DNA of 64,000 nucleotides, taken from NCBI GenBank assembly GCA_947172415.1, contig OX359193.1:444501-508500 (forward strand), in the 5' to 3' direction. The notes under the pieces are model-generated. The model ran no database searches. It saw nothing but the letters and a program-made list of their open reading frames with translations, and was not told where the DNA came from. The position numbers and the translations under genes are program-made. Every line of letters starts with the position of its first letter. The stretch's first letter is position 1. Source of the DNA: Chondrosia reniformis (lineage: Eukaryota; Porifera; Demospongiae; Chondrillida; Chondrillidae). Positions 18,591 through 50,837 of the stretch are shown here, piece by piece.

Positions 18591-21500
18591 CTAGGGATGG
18601 GATGGATTGGAACTGCCGCTGATCAGCGGATGATGAGGAATTCCATCAGAAATAAAATGCTAAAATAAACAAAAAACAAGAAAGTATTTTTACCAACAAT
18701 CTCCCAACTGTAACCCAAGCGCATACTGAAAGGAAATCACAGGAAACAGCCTGGGGTCAAGAATACTCATCCTCTATTCTACACACATGTACACCAGTTA
18801 TCCTCTCCTCTTATGGGCCGTCAGACCACACACAGATCAATCTAGATCTTCTTTAGTATCAATTTTGTCTGATTAATAACTACTTGTTACATGTAACTAC
18901 GTATCCAGATTCAATCGTCTACCCTCTCTCACTAAACATGTTCTGTACACGACTACCAGCTAGATGAAAGATCTATGCAGTAAGTCTCAATTTCCTTAAC
19001 TTCAAAAACTAAGATAAGCTAAAAAACCTTTTCCTTCTCCTTTCTTTTCTTCTTATCTTTCTTTTTCTTCTTCTTGTCTTTGTCAAGTTGTATTCCTTCT
19101 TCTTTCTTCTTCTTCTTCTTCACAGGTTCACCACTGGCCAGCAATCCCACTTATAACAAGAAAATTAAACAAGAATGGATTTTTGACAAACATACAAGAT
19201 TACAAACTGACACTTCTATAAAGTATGTAAAATGAGGCAAAATGAAAATACAAATAAAATAGACTATTATTGACTTTAGTCTCACTTGATGAAGACATTA
19301 GCTCATGCTTTGGAGGAATAATGGCGGGGTTACTATGGGAACTACCAGCCTTTGAAAATGATGATTCTGATCCTAGTTCAGTCTGCGGGGGAAATGCTTT
19401 AGGTGTGTCTGGTAGAGTGGGCGTGACCAAGGAAGTGATTTCCATTGCATCTGAGGGATCAAGCTTTATCTGCTTGTGTTTGTGTTTCTTCTTCTTCTTC
19501 TTGTGCCGACGAGGACTATCTGATCGAGGAAAGTCCATCCGATAGCTCTCTGGAAGCTGTGAAGAGAGGTTCCATCAAACAGTAAACAGGAAAACTACCT
19601 AAACTGTCAAATCTATCTAACAAACAATAGAGGGCAGTGACAAACAAACCACAATTGTTTTGTCTAAAAATCATCCTGAAGATTTAAAACCCAATATAGA
19701 ACCCCTTAGACAAAGTGCTACTGGTTTAATCTGTCAGTCTTCTGTCCCTTAGATTACACCAGGAGAGATTTAGAAATTCCTAATTCTTCTAAATAAAACC
19801 TTATTGCAAGGAAGCAAAGGGAGCCAGACACCTCCTCCCCTATATCCGACACAGAGCTACACCTCCTCCCCTATATCTGACACAGAGCTACACCTCCTCC
19901 CCTATATCCGACACAGAGCTACACCTACTCCCCTATATCTGACACAGAGCTACACCTCCTCCCCTATATCCGACACAGAGCTACACCTACTCCCCTATAT
20001 CTGACACAGAGCTACACCTACTCCCCTATATCCGACACAGAGCTACACCTCCTCCCCTATATCTGACACAGAGCTACACCTCCTCCCCTATATCCGACAC
20101 AGAGCTACACCTCCTCCCCTATATCCGACACAGAGCTACACCTCCTCCCCTATATCCGACACAGAGCTACACCTACTCCCCTATATCTGACACAGAGCTA
20201 CACCTCCTCCCCTATATCCGACACAGAGCTACACCTACTCCCCTATATCTGACACAGAGCTACACCTACTCCCCTATATCCGACACAGAGCTACACCTCC
20301 TCCCCTATATCTGACACAGAGCTACACCTCCTCCCCTATATCCGACACAGAGCTACACCTACTCCCCTATATCCGACACAGAGCTACACCTACTCCCCTA
20401 TATCTGACACAGAGCTACACCTCCTCCCCTATATCCGACACAGAGCTACACCTCCTCCCCTATATCTGACACAGAGCTACACCTACTCCCCTATATCCGA
20501 CACAGAGCTACACCTACTCCCCTATATCCGACACAGAGCTACACCTACTCCCCTATATCCGACACAGAGCTACACCTACTCCCTTATATCCGACACAGAG
20601 CTACACCTACTCCCCTATATCCGACACAGAGCTACACCTCCTCCCCTATATCTGACACAGAGCTACACCTCCTCCCCTATATCCGACACAGAGCTACACC
20701 TCCTCCCCCATATCCGACACAGAGCTACACCTCCTCCCCTATATCCGACACAGAGCTACACCTCCTCCCTATATCCGACACAGAGTTACACCTCCTCCCC
20801 TATATCCGACACAGAGCTAAACCTACTCCCCTATATCCGACACAGAGCTACACCTCCTCCCTATATCCGACACAGAGCTACACCTCCTCCCTATATCCGA
20901 CACAGAGTTACACCTCCTCCCCCATATCCGACACAGAGCTACACCTTTGTATGTAGACACTCACACTGCCTGGAGCCAGTCGGAAACACGACAAGGAGGA
21001 TCCAGACAGAGGAACCAGATCTCTACCAGTGATTGGGGGCTGGTCTATGACGGATCTCAGAGAACTCTCTACATTATCTGTCACGTCAATGTTGCCAGGA
21101 ATATCTGGGAGAAAAGCACTGAGACGATCCTTAATCTTGCTACTAGCCAAAGTGTGAAAATCGTCCTCCAGAACATTGATCATATCTTTGTCTTTAGAAT
21201 CTTCTTCTTCCAAAACTTCTAGAAAAGGCAAGTCACATTTGATGTCAAATGGTTCAGTGGACAGAGAGAACATGTGTTCAAACAGATTAGCCTAATAGAC
21301 ACATGAATAACTTAACTTTAACCTTGGTCTCATACCTATCAGCCATTTTATTGTTCATCTATGGCTACCCACTATTGAATACATTTCCAAAATAGCCAGA
21401 CATTGACAGAAGTACAAGTGAAACATTCACAAAAAGCGACCAACTTCCCACTGTTCCTTACCTTTTTTATCGTTTACCAAGTACAAATCTATGTTTTGTT

Positions 21501-33255: not shown

Positions 33256-42654
<9,399 letters not shown>

Positions 42655-42919: not shown

Positions 42920-45900
42920 TTAGTTCAGCGTTCCTCTACAGTTTGGCGCTCCACATAGGCAAGGAATCTTTTCATCTTCGATAGGAAATTTGTAGTCATA
43001 TGTAATCTCTTCATTTGCCCTGATGTCCCTCTTTGAATAAATTACAATCTTCTTTTGGGTGCCTATTGTTATGACTTTGGCATAGCAATTGGGCTAAAGA
43101 GAGAAGAAACAACAGACAATTTAATGTACACTCAACCACAGTAGTCCTATACTTTCAAATGGTCACACACTAGTGAAGAACAATCAGATATGGAGGGTTT
43201 CTTTAGAGAATATCACGAAGGATCAATATGTAACGTAAAATTTTGAGGGGGAACCTAGTTCTATATGTTTGTTTGCTAATGAAATTTGACAATTTGAATT
43301 TCTTTCAAAGGGGAAGGGATATATTTAAGGGAAGGCAAATGCCACCATGCCAAAAACTACACTGTGTATCTTACATACATCACAACAATGATTGATGAAT
43401 CTGGCCTGGTTGCCTCTCTTAGTTGCGTCTATCACACTTTCACCATCCAATCTGAAGAGATAGCTACTGCCGATCCCCATGCCTTCGTATCGATGCTCTC
43501 TTTCATCGGCAATCAGTGACCTGATGACCTCTCCTACATATTCAATCACCATCTCATCTGCTGGTACGTTCTCAAGGGCATACAGCCCCCATCCATGAAT
43601 AGAGGAGCGGGCAAATCTGACAGTTTTACCTCGAGACTTTTGTGAAAGGCAGAAAAATGGAAATGGGTCAGTTAAATAAAATCATGGATGCCACTTCAAG
43701 AAGCTTACCTTCAAAACACTGTACTTTAAGATATCGCTAGTGACTTCAGATGAAGCTATCACTACAGCAAGGCGGCGGTGCTTAGCACGATTGACTCTTC
43801 CGGATGACTAAAGTATTACAAGTAAGTTGGGATGATCTCATTTACATTTCAACATACACATGTTTATGATTACATATTAAATTATGTGGAACATGTACTG
43901 TACAAATTTATTTGAAAATAAAAAGCATAGGAGCCAAGGATTCACAAAAGATCAGTAGAGCAGAAGAAAGAAAAGAAAAGAAGACTCCTGTATCTTCATC
44001 CAAAGCTCTCTCCAGGTTTAGTCCCCTATAGGCTTTCTTTTTAGATAGTAGGCATAGCATGTAGGAAAATGGTATCTTAGATCATATAATTATACATTTT
44101 ACATGAAGTGTCTGTCATTACTATGTACCTTTAGAAACACATATAGTCTTATTCTGTTATGACACATAAATAGTACGTACAAGTATAAGAACCTTCATGT
44201 ACATATATAAACACAGTCAGGTACAAAGCGACCCATTTTGAGAGATGACAAAGTGTCATGTATAGAACTAATGTGGAGCAAGTAGTTGTCAAAACAACTC
44301 ACCTCTCTGTCTTGTTGTGACACTTTGCTCTTCTCTTTGGAGGCCTGCTGGTGTTGCACGCCCATCGATGTGACGTAACCCTTTTTGGTGCGAGCATCAA
44401 TTTTGTAATAACCCTCTGATCTTGCGCAACCAGTCTTATGAGTGGCACCCAGGGTCACTTGGGATGCAGTCCTGCGACGCTTCAGAGGTGTCACTACTGG
44501 TCCATCGGGAACAGCTCCAGGATAGTGAGCCCAGTGGGTGTCCTCGACAAGTGGAGATTGCTCAGTTTTCAATTCAAGATAGGCCTTTCGCATCATTTCA
44601 ACATCTTCTGCATCCAGACCTTCCTCAAGAAAGGACGATAAAATAATATCATCTTCACTTGACAGCCTCTTTGTGAAAGTAGGGGTTGGAGGAGGAGAGA
44701 GAACTGGATCCTTTGCTCTTTTTTCAAATTCTTGATTATAGCGGTTGGAATATTCTTGAATCCTCTTTTTTGATTTAGGTGGAGGTGAAAATTTAGGTGA
44801 TAACACGGGAGACTTGACAAGATTCGTTAAGAGGCCATTTTGATGTTTAGCCTCCAAGTCGCTGTCTGATGAGAACACATCAGCAACATCAAGAACCTTC
44901 TCTGGTGAATCGATAGTTAAGTTTTCTCCATCATATCCTTTGACATCTATTTCACTATCAGATGAGGACGTTAGCCTCCCAAAGACTTGGACAAAGTCAG
45001 ACAAGCTCTCCTCGTCTTCTTCAGACGATGATGGCTGCATCTCTTCTGGAACCACATCTTCCTGGGATGGAATCTTCTTTACCTCGGTTTCCATGGGAAC
45101 CAATGTTGTGTCCGTCTCCTGAGTTTCAGTGTCTGATTCACTGGTGAAGTCTGAGGAACTAAAATCACTGTAAAGAGGACTCCTCAGTCTCTTGGCAGAA
45201 GGCCTTCGCATGGTGACCACTACAGCGTTGCCCCGTGAGCTCCGGGACACGGTGGGTATCTTAAAGCTAACTAGTCTCTGTCGAATGGTGGCCTGAGGAG
45301 TGGTTGAGGGGGAGGATGTGGTGAGTTGGGTTTGGCTGAGCATTGGCCTGTAGTGTTGGTCAGTTGGTTGCTTGTTCCTCGCCATCTCCTCTCTTCTTCC
45401 CTGATGTCTTCTCTCCCAATTTTTGTCTGTTGCATCACTACCAACTTTTTCAATGTACTTACGATGCAAATCTTTCATTAAAACCTCTTTCAACTGTCTC
45501 ATTATCTTTTGACATACATCTCTCTTCAACGAAGACAGAGTTAACTTCCTTTCTGCTCGTCTTTGAGGTTTCCTTTCAGGAACTGGAAAGGTCGGCCATC
45601 TTGGTGGATAGGGCATAGAGGGCATGGCAGGCGAGGGGAATGAAGAGGGGCGTGGCCCAGGTGGGGGACCATGAGGGGGAAATCCCATAGGGGGACAGAA
45701 GCCCATAGGTCCAGGTGGTGGTGGTGGTGGTATTCCTGGTGGATAGGGCAGAGGTGGCATTAAGGTGGGTGGAGGAGGGTAGGGTGAGGGCGATGGATAC
45801 ATTATTGAAATGGGGGGGGCCAAATGTGCCTTTTCATTGGCTGATCCTAACTCAATAGTGTTGTCGTTGGCTCCAGATTCATCATCTGACAAATCCATAT

Positions 45901-48900
45901 CGTCATCACCAGAAACATTCCCGTCTTGTGTCGGAGTAATTTCATCCATAACGACAAGCTCTGGTGACTCATCCCCAGAAATGTCCTCCACCAGAGAGGA
46001 TTGGTAAACCTTAACGTCTGTGGGCTGGGATTCCACAGATTTAAGAGTCATCAAGGCCTGCAGAGGATCAAAGTGAGTTGGGAATGTGGCAAGGGAGTAC
46101 CCCGAGGATGTACTAATAACTGGCTTGAAGGTGTTTGCAAACCTGGAGCTGCTCTCATTTTGAGAGGTAAAATTCAAACTTTCTGCTTTAGCTTCTTCTG
46201 CAGAAGATTTCTCTTCGGAGGAGATGTCGGAGACGGGGGATAATACAGCTGCCAGAGAAGAGGACTTTGAAGTAACTTCCATAGTTCCCATTCCAGATTT
46301 GGGTTCTGCTTCATCCTCAGAATTGGAAATGGTTTCGTACTGTTCAGACAGCAACCCTGGTTTTGTTTGTGGACAGCTGCTCCGTTTATGTAGGCTGTTC
46401 GGTTGTGCTCTCTTGTTATCACCAATCAACTGACTGACACTCCCCCGGGGGGAGGGGTTGGCAGTGTTGTTTGATCTTGTTGCACTGCTTGGTGTTGCCT
46501 GACGTACAAGCAACACACTCATCAGTGGAGGTTGAGTACCGGCAACCTTTGATGCCCCTTCCAGTTTCATTTCCATTCCAACTCCAATTCCTGAATCCAA
46601 ACTAGAAGGTGTTTTCACAGAAGGTGACGTGATGGCCGGAGAAAAAGGACCAGATGAGGGAAACAAAAAGGGTGAGTGAAGTTTTAAATAGGGGGTCACG
46701 CCTCCTGAAGAGGGCGTGTGTGGGGAGGATAGGGAGCTGCATGGCGCCTTGATCTCCCCCCTTGGGTGCGGGTCCAGATCAGGAGAAGTGTCTAAAGTAG
46801 CGTCAGACATACCAAACGGAGGAAGAGTTAGGGAAGATGGCTTAAATGTGTGTTTAGCGTTCTTTCCTTCGAAAGCTTCCCTCAAATACTGCTTTGCTTT
46901 CTCTCCTATACCCACACAAATGTAAAATAATACATAAACAAGAATATCAGGATTTGAATATATTTTTAGCTAAAATGTATATTTTGCAATCTCTTTTAAT
47001 CAATCATGTAAGTTTTCCCTTATCTGTCTCATCCCTCCCTCTTACTCATATCATCCCTCCCTCTTACTCATATCATCCCTCCCCTCTTACCCATATCATC
47101 CCTCCCCTCTTACTCATATCATCCCTCCCTCTTACTCATATCATCCCTCCCTCTTACTCATATCATCCCTCCCATCTTACCCATATCATCCCTCCCCTCT
47201 TACTCATATCATCCCTCCCTCTTACCCATATCATCCCTCCCCCTTACCCATATCATCCCTCCCCTCTTACCCATATCATCCCTCCCTCTTATCCATATCA
47301 TCCCTCCCCTCTTACCCATATCATCCCTCCCCCTTACCCATATCATCCCTCCCCTCTTACCCATATCATCCCTCCCCTCTTACCCATATCATCCCTCCCC
47401 CTTACCCATATCATCCCTCCCCTCTTACCCATATCATCCCTCCCCTCTTACCCATATCATCCCTCCCCTCTTACCCATATCATCCCTCCCTCTTACCCAT
47501 ATCATCCCTCCCTCTTACCCATATCATCCCTCCCTCTTACCCATATCATCCCTCCCCTCTTACCCATATCATCCCTCCCCTCTTACCCATATCATCCAAC
47601 ACTGCAGTGATGGTACTAGACATTAGCTCAACACCATTCAAGCGCTCCACAGCATTTTGACCGTCTCCTTTCTTCCTAAACCCGACAGAGGCCACGCCTA
47701 AGTGTTCCTCATCGCTACCAAGCCTATGCAGCTTAACAAATACAACTGGCCCTACTTGGGAACACAGAGCCTTCAAAATAGTAGCAGTCACACTATGGGA
47801 TAGCTCAGACACAAATATTTCCCACTGAGGTGGAGCAGTGACTGAGAACCGGTCATACTATATTGAAGAAAGAAGACAACTATAATTCACGGGAGGTACA
47901 TAGCAAGGGGAATACAGGAATATTTGATATAATTTAAGCTTCTTTTGGCTTAAACTTTACATGTGAAGCCTTTATAGCAAACCAACATATCCTTGTAAAG
48001 GATTTCATTAGTTTATGAGGATATACTTTCTAATTTTTCATGTTTCAAGTCCTAAACTAAACCATCATATAGCACAAGCATCTTCACATCAGAGAATGGT
48101 GGGCACTTATTAGAATTATCATTAGTTTTCTCCAGTTTACAGCCATCATTTTGAGGCACAAGAAGTTAAATCAACAGTATACCTAAATCTACATTCTGAT
48201 TACCTCTGGTCAAAATGGTACATGAATTACCAATGATATGAGTCTAAATAAATGGGGATCAAAATGGCTGCCTGCTTATTATTGCCTAAACAACTGTCAT
48301 ATTATCCGAAAAACAAGATAAACCTTGTTCACTAGGACTCATGAATCCTTTACAATGATCTCCTCTTCAGTACAAGTCCTTTAAGATCCAGAATACACCT
48401 TGATAGTTCACTCCAGCCATTAAAAGGGCGGAGCTTGGTTGATGATGTCATTAAGTAAAAGTTTACAAGAGAATCCAAAGTTTTACAGAATATTAGACAA
48501 CAGTTTGACTAAAGAATGGGATTGACTGTCAGCTGATTGTAGCCCAAGTGGGTGTCTTTAAGGGCAAACAAACCTTGAATCTTGGTTTAAGCAACTCCCA
48601 GACCTTTCGAGAACCACCAAGAACAATCTTTTGTTCTCTGGGATCTTTCGGAGGGAGAATTGGTGGTTGCTACAGGGAAAACATCTGAAACATTCATACA
48701 CTGACTTTTTGTATAACTTATGACCGGATGCAGATATTTATGAGGTCCTTCATTAATATACACTGTTCTGTGAAGTTAACCATTTTCACTGCACAATATG
48801 GAATGATCATCTAAATAATCATCTTACCCCCGGAATTACACCGTCAAAGCGATATATCTTCTTAATGGCTCCTTTCTTGAGTTCTGGGTCCACTAAAAGC

Positions 48901-48965
48901 TTGTAATTTCGCTTCTTCTTCGAATGTTCTCCCGCTCCCTGATCAGAAGACATTGCGGCGGCCAT
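42920..48965 (-). CDS. SETD1: SETD1-type histone H3K4 methyltransferase (COMPASS catalytic subunit)
   Basis: Seven exons on the minus strand: 48828-48965, 48574-48669, 47587-47857, 44303-46905, 43709-43807, 43379-43636, 42920-43093. They give 1212 residues. The N-terminus has NYKLLVDPE and KKIYRFDGV, then an RRM (about residues 80-165) as in SETD1A/B. A long disordered serine/proline-rich region is in one 2.6-kb exon. Its end holds a WDR5-binding WIN motif, [12 protein letters not shown]. The SET domain follows ([51 protein letters not shown]) with the post-SET cysteines [13 protein letters not shown] at the C-terminus. It trimethylates H3K4 at promoters with WDR5, RBBP5, ASH2L and DPY30. Intron 3 holds an array of copies of its own donor. 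Confidence 0.95.
43925..44095. mobile_element. Dispersed non-autonomous element (copy in SETD1 intron 4)
   Basis: Contains AGGATTCACAAAAGATCA, a purine run, then CTCTCTCCAGGTTTAGTCCC and GTAGGCATAGCATGTAGGAA, matching the copy in CLTC intron 17. It is in the same orientation along the plus strand. It has no coding capacity. Confidence 0.6.
47040..47600. repeat. 21-23-bp minisatellite made of SETD1 exon 3 donor copies
   Basis: About 25 copies. On the minus strand the unit is GATGATATGG followed by GTAAGAGGGGAGG. The first ten bases are exactly the last ten of exon 3, and the rest is the start of intron 3. Thus the native junction is the first repeat unit and nearly every later unit holds an intact GG-GTAAGA donor. 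Variants differ in one or two G residues or have ATGAG in place of ATGGG. The array runs through most of intron 3. Confidence 0.97.
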
Positions 48966-49330: not shown

Positions 49331-50837
49331 ATGGCGTCTAAACGACTTCAAGTAGTTAAAGGTCACCTGAAAACGTCTCCCCTTGCCTCCACTGACGGAG
49401 AGGGCCCGCTTACCAAAGAACAACTGGATCAATATGACCGTGATGGGTTTTTTGTGATAAGCGGGCTTTATGACGTCAAAGATTTAGAGGTGTATCGAAA
49501 GAGGTTTCAAGAGATCTGCAATAGCGGTAAGCGCCCACCATTCATGACCATTATGAAGGATGTAGCTTGCAAGGATCAGCCCATAAGCGAATTCACCGTG
49601 AACAAGGTCCAGGATTTTCTGAAGGATCCAGTTTTGTCCAAGTATTGCAGTGATCCTCGTGTGCTAGACATTGTGGAAGCGTTGGTTGGAAAGGATATTA
49701 TGGCAATACACAGCATGCTGATCAACAAGCCGCCAGATGTTGGAAGAAAGACATCTCGTCATCCTCTCCACCAAGATTTGTGGTACTTTCCCTTCAGACC
49801 AGCAGAAATGATTGTGTGCTCTTGGACCGCAATGCAGTGGGTTTACAAAGAAAATGGCTGCCTGCTAGTTTTTCCTGGAAGTCACAAAGGGGAATTGAAA
49901 AGACACGACTACCCTGAGTGGCAGGTGTGTCATATAGTACCTGTATGTCATATAGTACCTGTGTGTCATATAGTACCTGTGTGTCATATAGTACCTGTGT
50001 GTCATATAGTACCTGTGTGTCATATAGTACCTGTGTGTCATGTATATATTAGGGAGGAGTTAATGCAATGTACCATGAGATCAAAGGAGATTCAGAATCT
50101 CGTGATCCAGTTTACCTAGAAATGCAACCCGGCGACACTGTCTTCTTTCATCCTCTCCTAATTCATGGTTCTGGAGCAAACATGACAAACGACTTCAGAA
50201 AGGTACATTAGCACCTGACAATAGCTCACTAACACAATACTGTAGCAAGAGAAATAGGAGCTGAATGCATTATGTACATATTCTGATCGCAATGCAAGTG
50301 TGTCATCTGCATTGTTTGTAGTCCATATCCTGTCACTACGCCAGCAGTCACTGTGACTTTATAGATGTCAAGGGAACCATGCAGGAGAGCGTAGCTAAGG
50401 AAATTGAGGCTGTGGCAAAGAAAAGGAGTCGTGGAGCTGAAATTACCTGGAAGGTTACTAAACAACACATCACCTGTGGTCACCCCTAACTTGCTGCGGA
50501 CTGACAAGAGATTTACTTAGATGATAGGGCTTTCTTCTAACGGAGCCAAACTTACCTTTGAGATGGTTCAGTCTTTTGAATGTCTAGAAATGCAGTTTGT
50601 TTCTTGAGAGCCAGACGTTTCGACTCTTTGTCAGTCCACTTATAAGATGAACCATCTCAAAATAAGAGATTTAGTTTCCCTTGTGTAGGAGGTATCATGA
50701 ACTGAATCATCTCTTCTAGCCCTTACCAATGTAAATCTTCATTCCTTGAAATGTTACCTCCCTCTCTGCTGTATTAGGATGTCTGGCAATTGAAAGGTCT
50801 TCTTGTCAGAGGAGAGAGAGGAAACTTTTGCTATTAG
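49331..50837 (+). CDS. PHYH: Phytanoyl-CoA 2-hydroxylase, peroxisomal
   Basis: Four exons: 49331-49924, 50053-50202, 50322-50453, 50778-50837, giving 311 residues. The start at 49331 is chosen because it places RLQVVKGHL, a type 2 peroxisomal targeting signal (R-L-x5-H-L), at the N-terminus as in human PHYH. The Fe(II) ligands are the His and Asp of [14 protein letters not shown] and the His of [15 protein letters not shown] and the C-terminal [12 protein letters not shown] also match. The enzyme hydroxylates phytanoyl-CoA at the alpha carbon with 2-oxoglutarate and O2, the first step of phytanic acid alpha-oxidation. Its product pathway leads to pristanoyl-CoA, the substrate of ACOX3 encoded 1.6 kb downstream. 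Intron 1 is a minisatellite that starts exactly at the donor. Confidence 0.96.
49925..50042. repeat. 18-bp minisatellite starting at the PHYH exon 1 donor
   Basis: About six and a half copies of GTGTGTCATATAGTACCT. The first unit begins with the GT of the splice donor, so every unit presents GTGTGT or GTATGT in the same position. The array occupies about 118 of the 128 intron bases. Confidence 0.97.

Follow-up and report, generated by a model that had tools for sequence, protein, structure and literature searches.

The third intron of a SETD1 homologue in the demosponge Chondrosia reniformis begins inside a minisatellite whose first unit holds the end of exon 3 and the true 5' splice site, and whose 24 further units are copies of this same boundary. 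The array is in all likelihood the product of a tandem duplication across the exon/intron junction, a structure called 'mirage' in amphioxus, which is tolerated while the donor on the exon side is used. The gene is encoded on the minus strand of the window, by which we mean the whole stretch of 64,000 nucleotides (nt) analysed here (assembly GCA_947172415.1, contig OX359193.1, hereafter C5, C5:444501-508500). Positions are those of the window unless C5 is named, and genome-wide counts were taken over the 117,379,552-base, 15-record assembly.

The SETD1 gene and its exon 3 junction

The identification of the gene as SETD1, already proposed in a sequence-only reading of the window, is borne out by Pfam matches to RRM_1 (E = 4.6e-9, residues 92-161 of the homologue), N-SET (E = 6.1e-10) and SET (E = 4.9e-14). 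The same reading had placed the end of exon 3 at 47587. This junction, GATGATATGG/GTAAGAGGGGAGG at 47587/47586 on the minus strand (a slash between bases marks the splice junction), was confirmed with phmmer: residues 88-183 of the joined exons align with residues 5-100 of human SETD1A (3s8s, E = 2.4e-5) without any gap over the junction. The only better row was a poly(A)-binding protein, likewise an RRM protein (E = 4.6e-6). Because the SETD1A alignment runs uninterrupted through the junction, the first donor is required for a normal RRM. Exon 3 is entered in phase 0 and left in phase 1; its start, given as 47824 by our home-made gene finder, was reset by hand to the acceptor before 47857. 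The features of this part of the gene are listed below.

48828..48965, minus strand: SETD1 exon 1, coding part (own model)
48574..48669, minus strand: SETD1 exon 2 (home-made gene finder and spliced model)
47587..47857, minus strand: SETD1 exon 3, with most of the RRM, ending in GATGATATGG (open frames, RRM_1, SETD1A alignment)
47581..47589, minus strand: real 5' splice site TGG/GTAAGA, last exon base 47587
47029..47597, minus strand: minisatellite of 25 units of 22/23 nt, unit 1 overlapping the last 10-11 nt of exon 3 (Tandem Repeats Finder, TRF, and unit cutting)
47034..47573, minus strand: the 24 downstream units, donor state scored for each
47546..47548, minus strand: TGA in unit 3, the stop met by all transcripts that would use positions 3 to 25 (open frames and splicing script)
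46906..47028, minus strand: remainder of intron 3 beyond the TRF array, with acceptor TATAG/GAGAG at 46906/46905
44303..46905, minus strand: SETD1 exon 4, with the N-SET domain near its end (gene finder, N-SET profile match)
43328..43681, minus strand: open frame with the SET domain, 3' of every premature stop (SET profile match)

An array made of the exon 3 boundary

TRF describes the array at 47029-47597 with a period of 23, 25.3 copies, 95% matches and a score of 998. Cutting the minus strand into units yields 10 copies of GATGATATGGGTAAGAGGGGAGG and 15 close variants, in agreement with the earlier claim that intron 3 carries about 25 copies of its own 5' splice site. It had also been claimed that the true junction is the first unit of the array. 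Indeed, unit 1 holds the true end of exon 3 with its donor, and the composite GATGATATGG/GTAAGAGGGGAGG recurs along the array. The range first given, 47040-47860, correctly took in the array and exon 3 but left out the last 11 bases of the array. The repeat unit therefore spans the exon/intron boundary, exon tail included, as the structure of a mirage implies, and further copies retain the splice signal, since GT is kept in 23 of the 24 downstream units.

The description of the later units as almost all intact decoys needs to be qualified. Identity with the real donor from -3 to +5 is found in 17 of the 24 (three of these differ at +6), while six have A instead of G at -1 (ATGA/GTAAG), which lowers the score from 7.05 bits for the real donor to 3.25 bits on a generic donor matrix, and unit 14 lacks the GT (GGATAAG). 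On this same scale the real donor is of ordinary strength, the median of 305 donors from the better predicted genes being 7.1 bits. Read from the exon outwards, the 25 units comprise 18 GGGTAAG, the real donor included, six ATGAGTAAG and one GGATAAG. The six weaker units are gathered at the far end (units 18, 20, 21, 22, 24 and 25; permutation P = 0.00013), as expected if the copies near the exon are younger or are kept alike.

This ordering of the variants along the array bears on the possibility of an assembly artefact. Tandem arrays can be mis-assembled, but the 569 bp of this one fit well inside a single HiFi read (0.80 million reads totalling 10.31 Gb), and the primary assembly has a quality value (QV) of 69.8 at about 70x coverage, according to the available part of its description (PMC12181767). 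With a HiFi assembly of QV 69.8, an artefact is very unlikely.

An ordinary intronic minisatellite, resembling a donor by chance, would also account for a unit of this kind. In its favour, the word GGGTAAG gives 642 triple matches genome-wide against 658 for the backward word, and among the 65 intronic arrays of the survey described below a donor motif of at least 4 nats occurs on the sense strand of 9 and on the antisense strand of 13. However, unit 1 includes the last 10-11 nt of a homology-supported coding exon as well as the junction itself. The resemblance thus looks like identity by descent, and a chance origin is improbable.

A third possibility is that the intron itself was created by the tandem duplication of an exon segment containing AGGT. 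Such a mechanism has been proposed for some Drosophila introns, in the portion of PMC2891723 at hand, and the amphioxus authors proposed a related model for mirages in the accessible text of their reports. The SETD1 array shares with this form of intron gain a duplication that carries splice signals. It differs in that an existing boundary appears to have been copied: by eye, the two intron ends show no sign of a common origin, the acceptor flank and start of exon 4 (TGTGTGGGTATAG/GAGAGAAAGC) being unlike the unit, and array and acceptor lie 123 nt apart with other intron sequence between them. The creation of a new intron is accordingly given little credence.

The sense strand of the array is entirely devoid of C (GC skew 1.0). 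Its G-quadruplex motifs number 13, whereas 200 shuffles gave 3.5 on average and never more than 7. On the plus strand of 47029-47597 all three frames are open across the array, because the C-rich unit contains no stop; there is no sign of coding.

Use of a downstream donor

The consequences of splicing at each downstream copy were determined with a script in which each of the 24 positions was joined to exon 4 and the product translated. A premature stop is reached in all 24 cases, 38 or 44 nt beyond the end of exon 3. For positions 3-25 (23 of the 24), translation stops after 181 residues at the TGA of unit 3. Donor 2 shifts the frame and leads to a stop after 183 residues, shortly past the entry into exon 4. 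All 24 alternative products terminate ahead of the N-SET and SET domains. The use of a decoy would consequently have one type of outcome, a truncated or decayed mRNA, and would not produce a ladder of proteins.

These results dispose of the graded isoforms that the sequence-only reading had envisaged on the basis of near-identical donor copies. The frame change expected for most unit counts proved to be of no consequence, as seven of the 24 positions lengthen the message by a multiple of three and reach a stop nonetheless. Since every downstream position ends in this way, graded protein isoforms are excluded for the present allele and are the least credible of the explanations considered here. 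The other alternative of that reading, a purely neutral expansion, is the likelier of the two.

A probably tolerated boundary-spanning minisatellite

The history that best explains the array would begin with the duplication of one unit, composed of the last 10-11 nt of exon 3 and the first 12-13 nt of intron 3, followed by expansion into the intron, presumably by slippage or unequal exchange. A sense strand free of C, rich in G runs and potentially able to form G-quadruplexes may have helped the array to expand. The spliceosome would use the exon-side copy, perhaps with the help of factors bound to the exon, and a slip to a later copy would give an early-stop mRNA that is either lost or translated into a truncated product. 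The array would be tolerated rather than used, and with regard to SETD1 biology it is probably neutral. The intact protein points to the use of the exon-side donor, the sole copy that would leave SETD1 intact.

The closest known structures are the amphioxus mirages, in which intron-exon boundaries are duplicated in the manner of a minisatellite and the length is unstable; regular splicing is described for them in the accessible parts of the reports (PMC3087553, PMC3902484). They concern the globin genes BflGb6 and BflGb9, Adh3, troponin C and PGBD5. Judged on its nucleotide sequence, the SETD1 array has the structure that defines a mirage, and its units of 22/23 bp are bracketed by those of Adh3 (10-72 bp, as given in the same excerpts). 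The cases described in these excerpts come from lancelets, whereas the SETD1 array is a series of 25 units in a demosponge. In addition, haplotype length differences and somatic instability are reported for the lancelet arrays in these excerpts, whereas the SETD1 array is known from one assembled haplotype sequence. Among open-licence papers, the available texts reported boundary-spanning minisatellites from lancelets only, with human IFI6 as a relative, and no report of a sponge (Porifera) minisatellite at an exon-intron boundary was found in this literature. The SETD1 array would extend the mirage-type structure from lancelets to a sponge, as a new sponge case of a kind already described. 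Its geometry is clean: 18 of the 25 units share the same donor core, one leaves the protein intact and the rest give an early stop.

The relative mentioned above, human IFI6 (6-16, G1P3), contains a minisatellite with multiple splice donors (Turri 1995, as cited in the accessible parts of PMC4526556, PMC2572611 and PMC2915984). As with the units of IFI6, the SETD1 decoys are predicted from their sequence to be potential donors for an exon of the gene in which they lie. The difference lies in the outcome. According to these citing texts, two downstream units of IFI6 are used and three mRNA species result, whereas the downstream positions of SETD1 all lead to a premature stop.

The IFI6 precedent, known from these same excerpts, also lends some support to a splicing rheostat, in which U1 small nuclear ribonucleoprotein bound to the decoys would divert a share of the pre-mRNA to early-stop transcripts, so that the length of the array would set the SETD1 dose. 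The downstream positions all stop at nearly one place, as a uniform poison switch would need. Furthermore, the predicted U1 pairing of 17 of the 24 decoys equals or slightly beats that of the real site, at -9.2 kcal/mol for GGGTAAGA and -9.7 kcal/mol for GGGTAAGG (3 units); it falls to -4.5 kcal/mol for the six weak copies and -4.2 kcal/mol for the copy without GT. U1 genes are present in the genome (7 matches), and the three inspected all have the usual ACTTACCTG near the 5' end. Against the rheostat stand the amphioxus mirages, reported to be free of splicing interference in the available text, and the similar arrays found at unrelated genes. Such a device is therefore doubtful. Still more doubtful is a length-tunable array of poison donors, in which near-identical U1 sites would compete with the true donor, all losses would end at one and the same early stop, and a change in unit number, heritable or somatic, would set the dose of this histone H3 lysine 4 (H3K4) methyltransferase. 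If true, the mirror-image acceptor array described below would suggest that minisatellites at splice boundaries act on dosage more widely in the Chondrosia reniformis genome.

Several points weigh against a tolerated mirage spliced at its first copy. The use of the first donor is deduced from the protein. A minisatellite of a similar kind, that of human IFI6, does supply used donors, according to the citing passage of PMC4526556, and in human cells SRSF1 can suppress the upstream one of two close donors, as stated in the accessible part of PMC5585400; the dominance of the outermost site is thus not automatic. A G-rich sense strand is no rule either, since intronic arrays with a G4Hunter score above 1 number 4, SETD1 included, against 9 with a score below -1. 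Finally, the depletion of boundary copies presented in the next section was obtained with a home-made gene finder that misplaced the donor of a neighbouring clathrin gene and may avoid repeats.

Frequency of boundary arrays

A survey was carried out on a contiguous region of 264 kb (the window and 200 kb more), using TRF with periods of 10-120 and at least 2.8 copies in a non-redundant set. It yielded 82 arrays with a total length of 20.8 kb, 65 of them in predicted introns. Intronic repeats are thus common enough to constitute a general supply of minisatellites. For 19 intronic arrays a predicted donor lies no more than 60 nt from the 5' edge: 11 begin 3 to 18 nt after it, 7 begin 24 to 50 nt after it, and the SETD1 array is the only one to overlap it. 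By eye, a periodic pattern running through the donor is seen only there. Array 5' edges within 20 nt of a predicted donor amount to 12 of 65, against 6.8 for random placement (P about 0.03); for the same 65 arrays the cut-offs of 5, 10, 30 and 50 nt were not significant, and the 3' edges were not enriched at the acceptor.

Copies of the boundaries themselves were searched for within the same intron with 24-mers centred on predicted boundaries, allowing at most 5 mismatches, in genes scoring at least 20 and after removal of low-complexity probes. Of the 379 donors, 3 had such copies, 24 in the case of SETD1 and a single one for each of the other two; so did 2 of 379 acceptors (10 copies and one copy), against 33 of 374 mid-intron points and 5 of 267 exon interiors used as controls. 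As far as a crude gene finder can tell, boundary arrays are uncommon compared with intron-internal ones, as expected if selection acts against arrays that overrun a splice site. A strict search for units that include the end of a coding exon returned SETD1 only among 127 arrays; it missed the clathrin and PHYH cases described in the last section, which were found by hand.

Search for a genome-wide pattern

A general rule of donor-seeded minisatellites was considered for this genome and rejected in view of a weak motif enrichment, the lack of a sense-strand excess and the genome-wide word controls. Concerning the motif, the best donor score within the unit was at least 4 bits in 12 of the 82 surveyed arrays against 6.8 expected, a count reached in 4 of 200 shuffles. 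The excess fades at 5 bits, where the 6 arrays observed (3.8 expected) are matched in 36 of 200 shuffles, and at 6 bits (1 against 1.7), and acceptor scores in the units of the 82 arrays showed no excess over shuffles. As for the words, AGGTAAG gives 534 triple matches genome-wide against 312 for the backward word, or 1.7-fold; these counts, like those given above for GGGTAAG, take overlapping triples, and long arrays weigh heavily in them.

Twenty donor-word arrays elsewhere in the genome (the first 10 per word with at least 2 triples, among the matches listed) were then compared with 20 backward-word controls chosen by the same rule, three further places of one dispersed family being skipped among the controls. 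The composition score does not clearly separate the 20 arrays from the 20 controls, the numbers for donor words and controls being 11 and 7 at a score of at least -2, 8 and 5 at 0, 6 and 3 at 2, 3 and 3 at 4, and 1 and 3 at 6. By eye, and not blind, three of the 20 (L029, L041 and L047) start at an open frame of coding appearance, the tail of which recurs in every unit shown. Their peptides have no Pfam match and homology confirms none of them: L041 gave nothing of note in homology searches, and L047 gave a weak match to the splicing factor U2SURP (E = 0.25) that ranks below an unrelated RNA polymerase subunit (E = 0.15). Elsewhere in these sets, Vps16_N falls just below the cut-off in L036 (22.5 against 23.4 bits), for which a further homology search gave no credible match, LYRIC is well below the cut-off in L035, and the peptides of L037 and L043 have no Pfam match. 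Of the seven DNA-similar arrays L002-L008, five were analysed with TRF, and no listed consensus unit contained GGGTAAG or its complement. Since the motif, strand and word controls show a weak excess or none and the composition score does not clearly separate the sets, there are a few real cases of boundary arrays and no genome-wide law.

Neighbouring cases

Three other places in the region combine a repeat with a splice site.

40257..40573, minus strand: clathrin heavy chain donor CAG/GTACAT (40571/40570); the 79-nt array behind it (40257-40540) contains AAAGGCCAG/GTATGT three times
49925..50052, plus strand: PHYH intron, 128 nt long, with an 18-nt repeat that occupies 117 nt and begins at the donor GTGTGT
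C5:436,055-436,948 (in L013; window about -8445 to -7552): predicted 894-nt intron, almost wholly a C-rich array (gene finder)

When the clathrin exon peptide is ended at the donor, its alignment extends up to the final residue (E = 5.8e-27). At 9.8 bits, the three copies of exon end and donor outscore the real site (5.5 bits), and the use of any of them would lead to a stop at the 12th intron codon. The next conserved-looking frame past the array begins VLTVSV at 40024, which we take to be the continuation of clathrin. The PHYH gene (E = 1.7e-59) has a repeat whose consensus unit contains both GTGTGT and ATATAG; its acceptor was picked from the reading frame GGVNAMYH, which presumably fits PHYH.

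Located outside the window, some 55 kb away from the SETD1 junction, the 894-nt intron harbours 25 AG sites that resemble acceptors and have C-rich tracts; the predicted real acceptor is the final one of these sites. In the stretch read, 23 of the 24 other acceptors reach a stop, while the nearest (+33 nt) does not. This predicted array of 25 acceptors would be a mirror image of the SETD1 array. As the junction peptide (69 residues) matched nothing in Pfam and nothing credible in the PDB, the gene finder is what this case stands on. Together with SETD1 and clathrin, this intron provides natural experiments on the choice made by the spliceosome among near-identical sites.

Two other repeats were observed in the window. 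An array of 36 copies of a 31-nt unit (19828-20946) lies in a predicted intron, 18 nt past its predicted donor, and a 15-nt repeat, GGTGGCATGGCTCCA, is located at 33287-33390 within a predicted coding exon on the minus strand.
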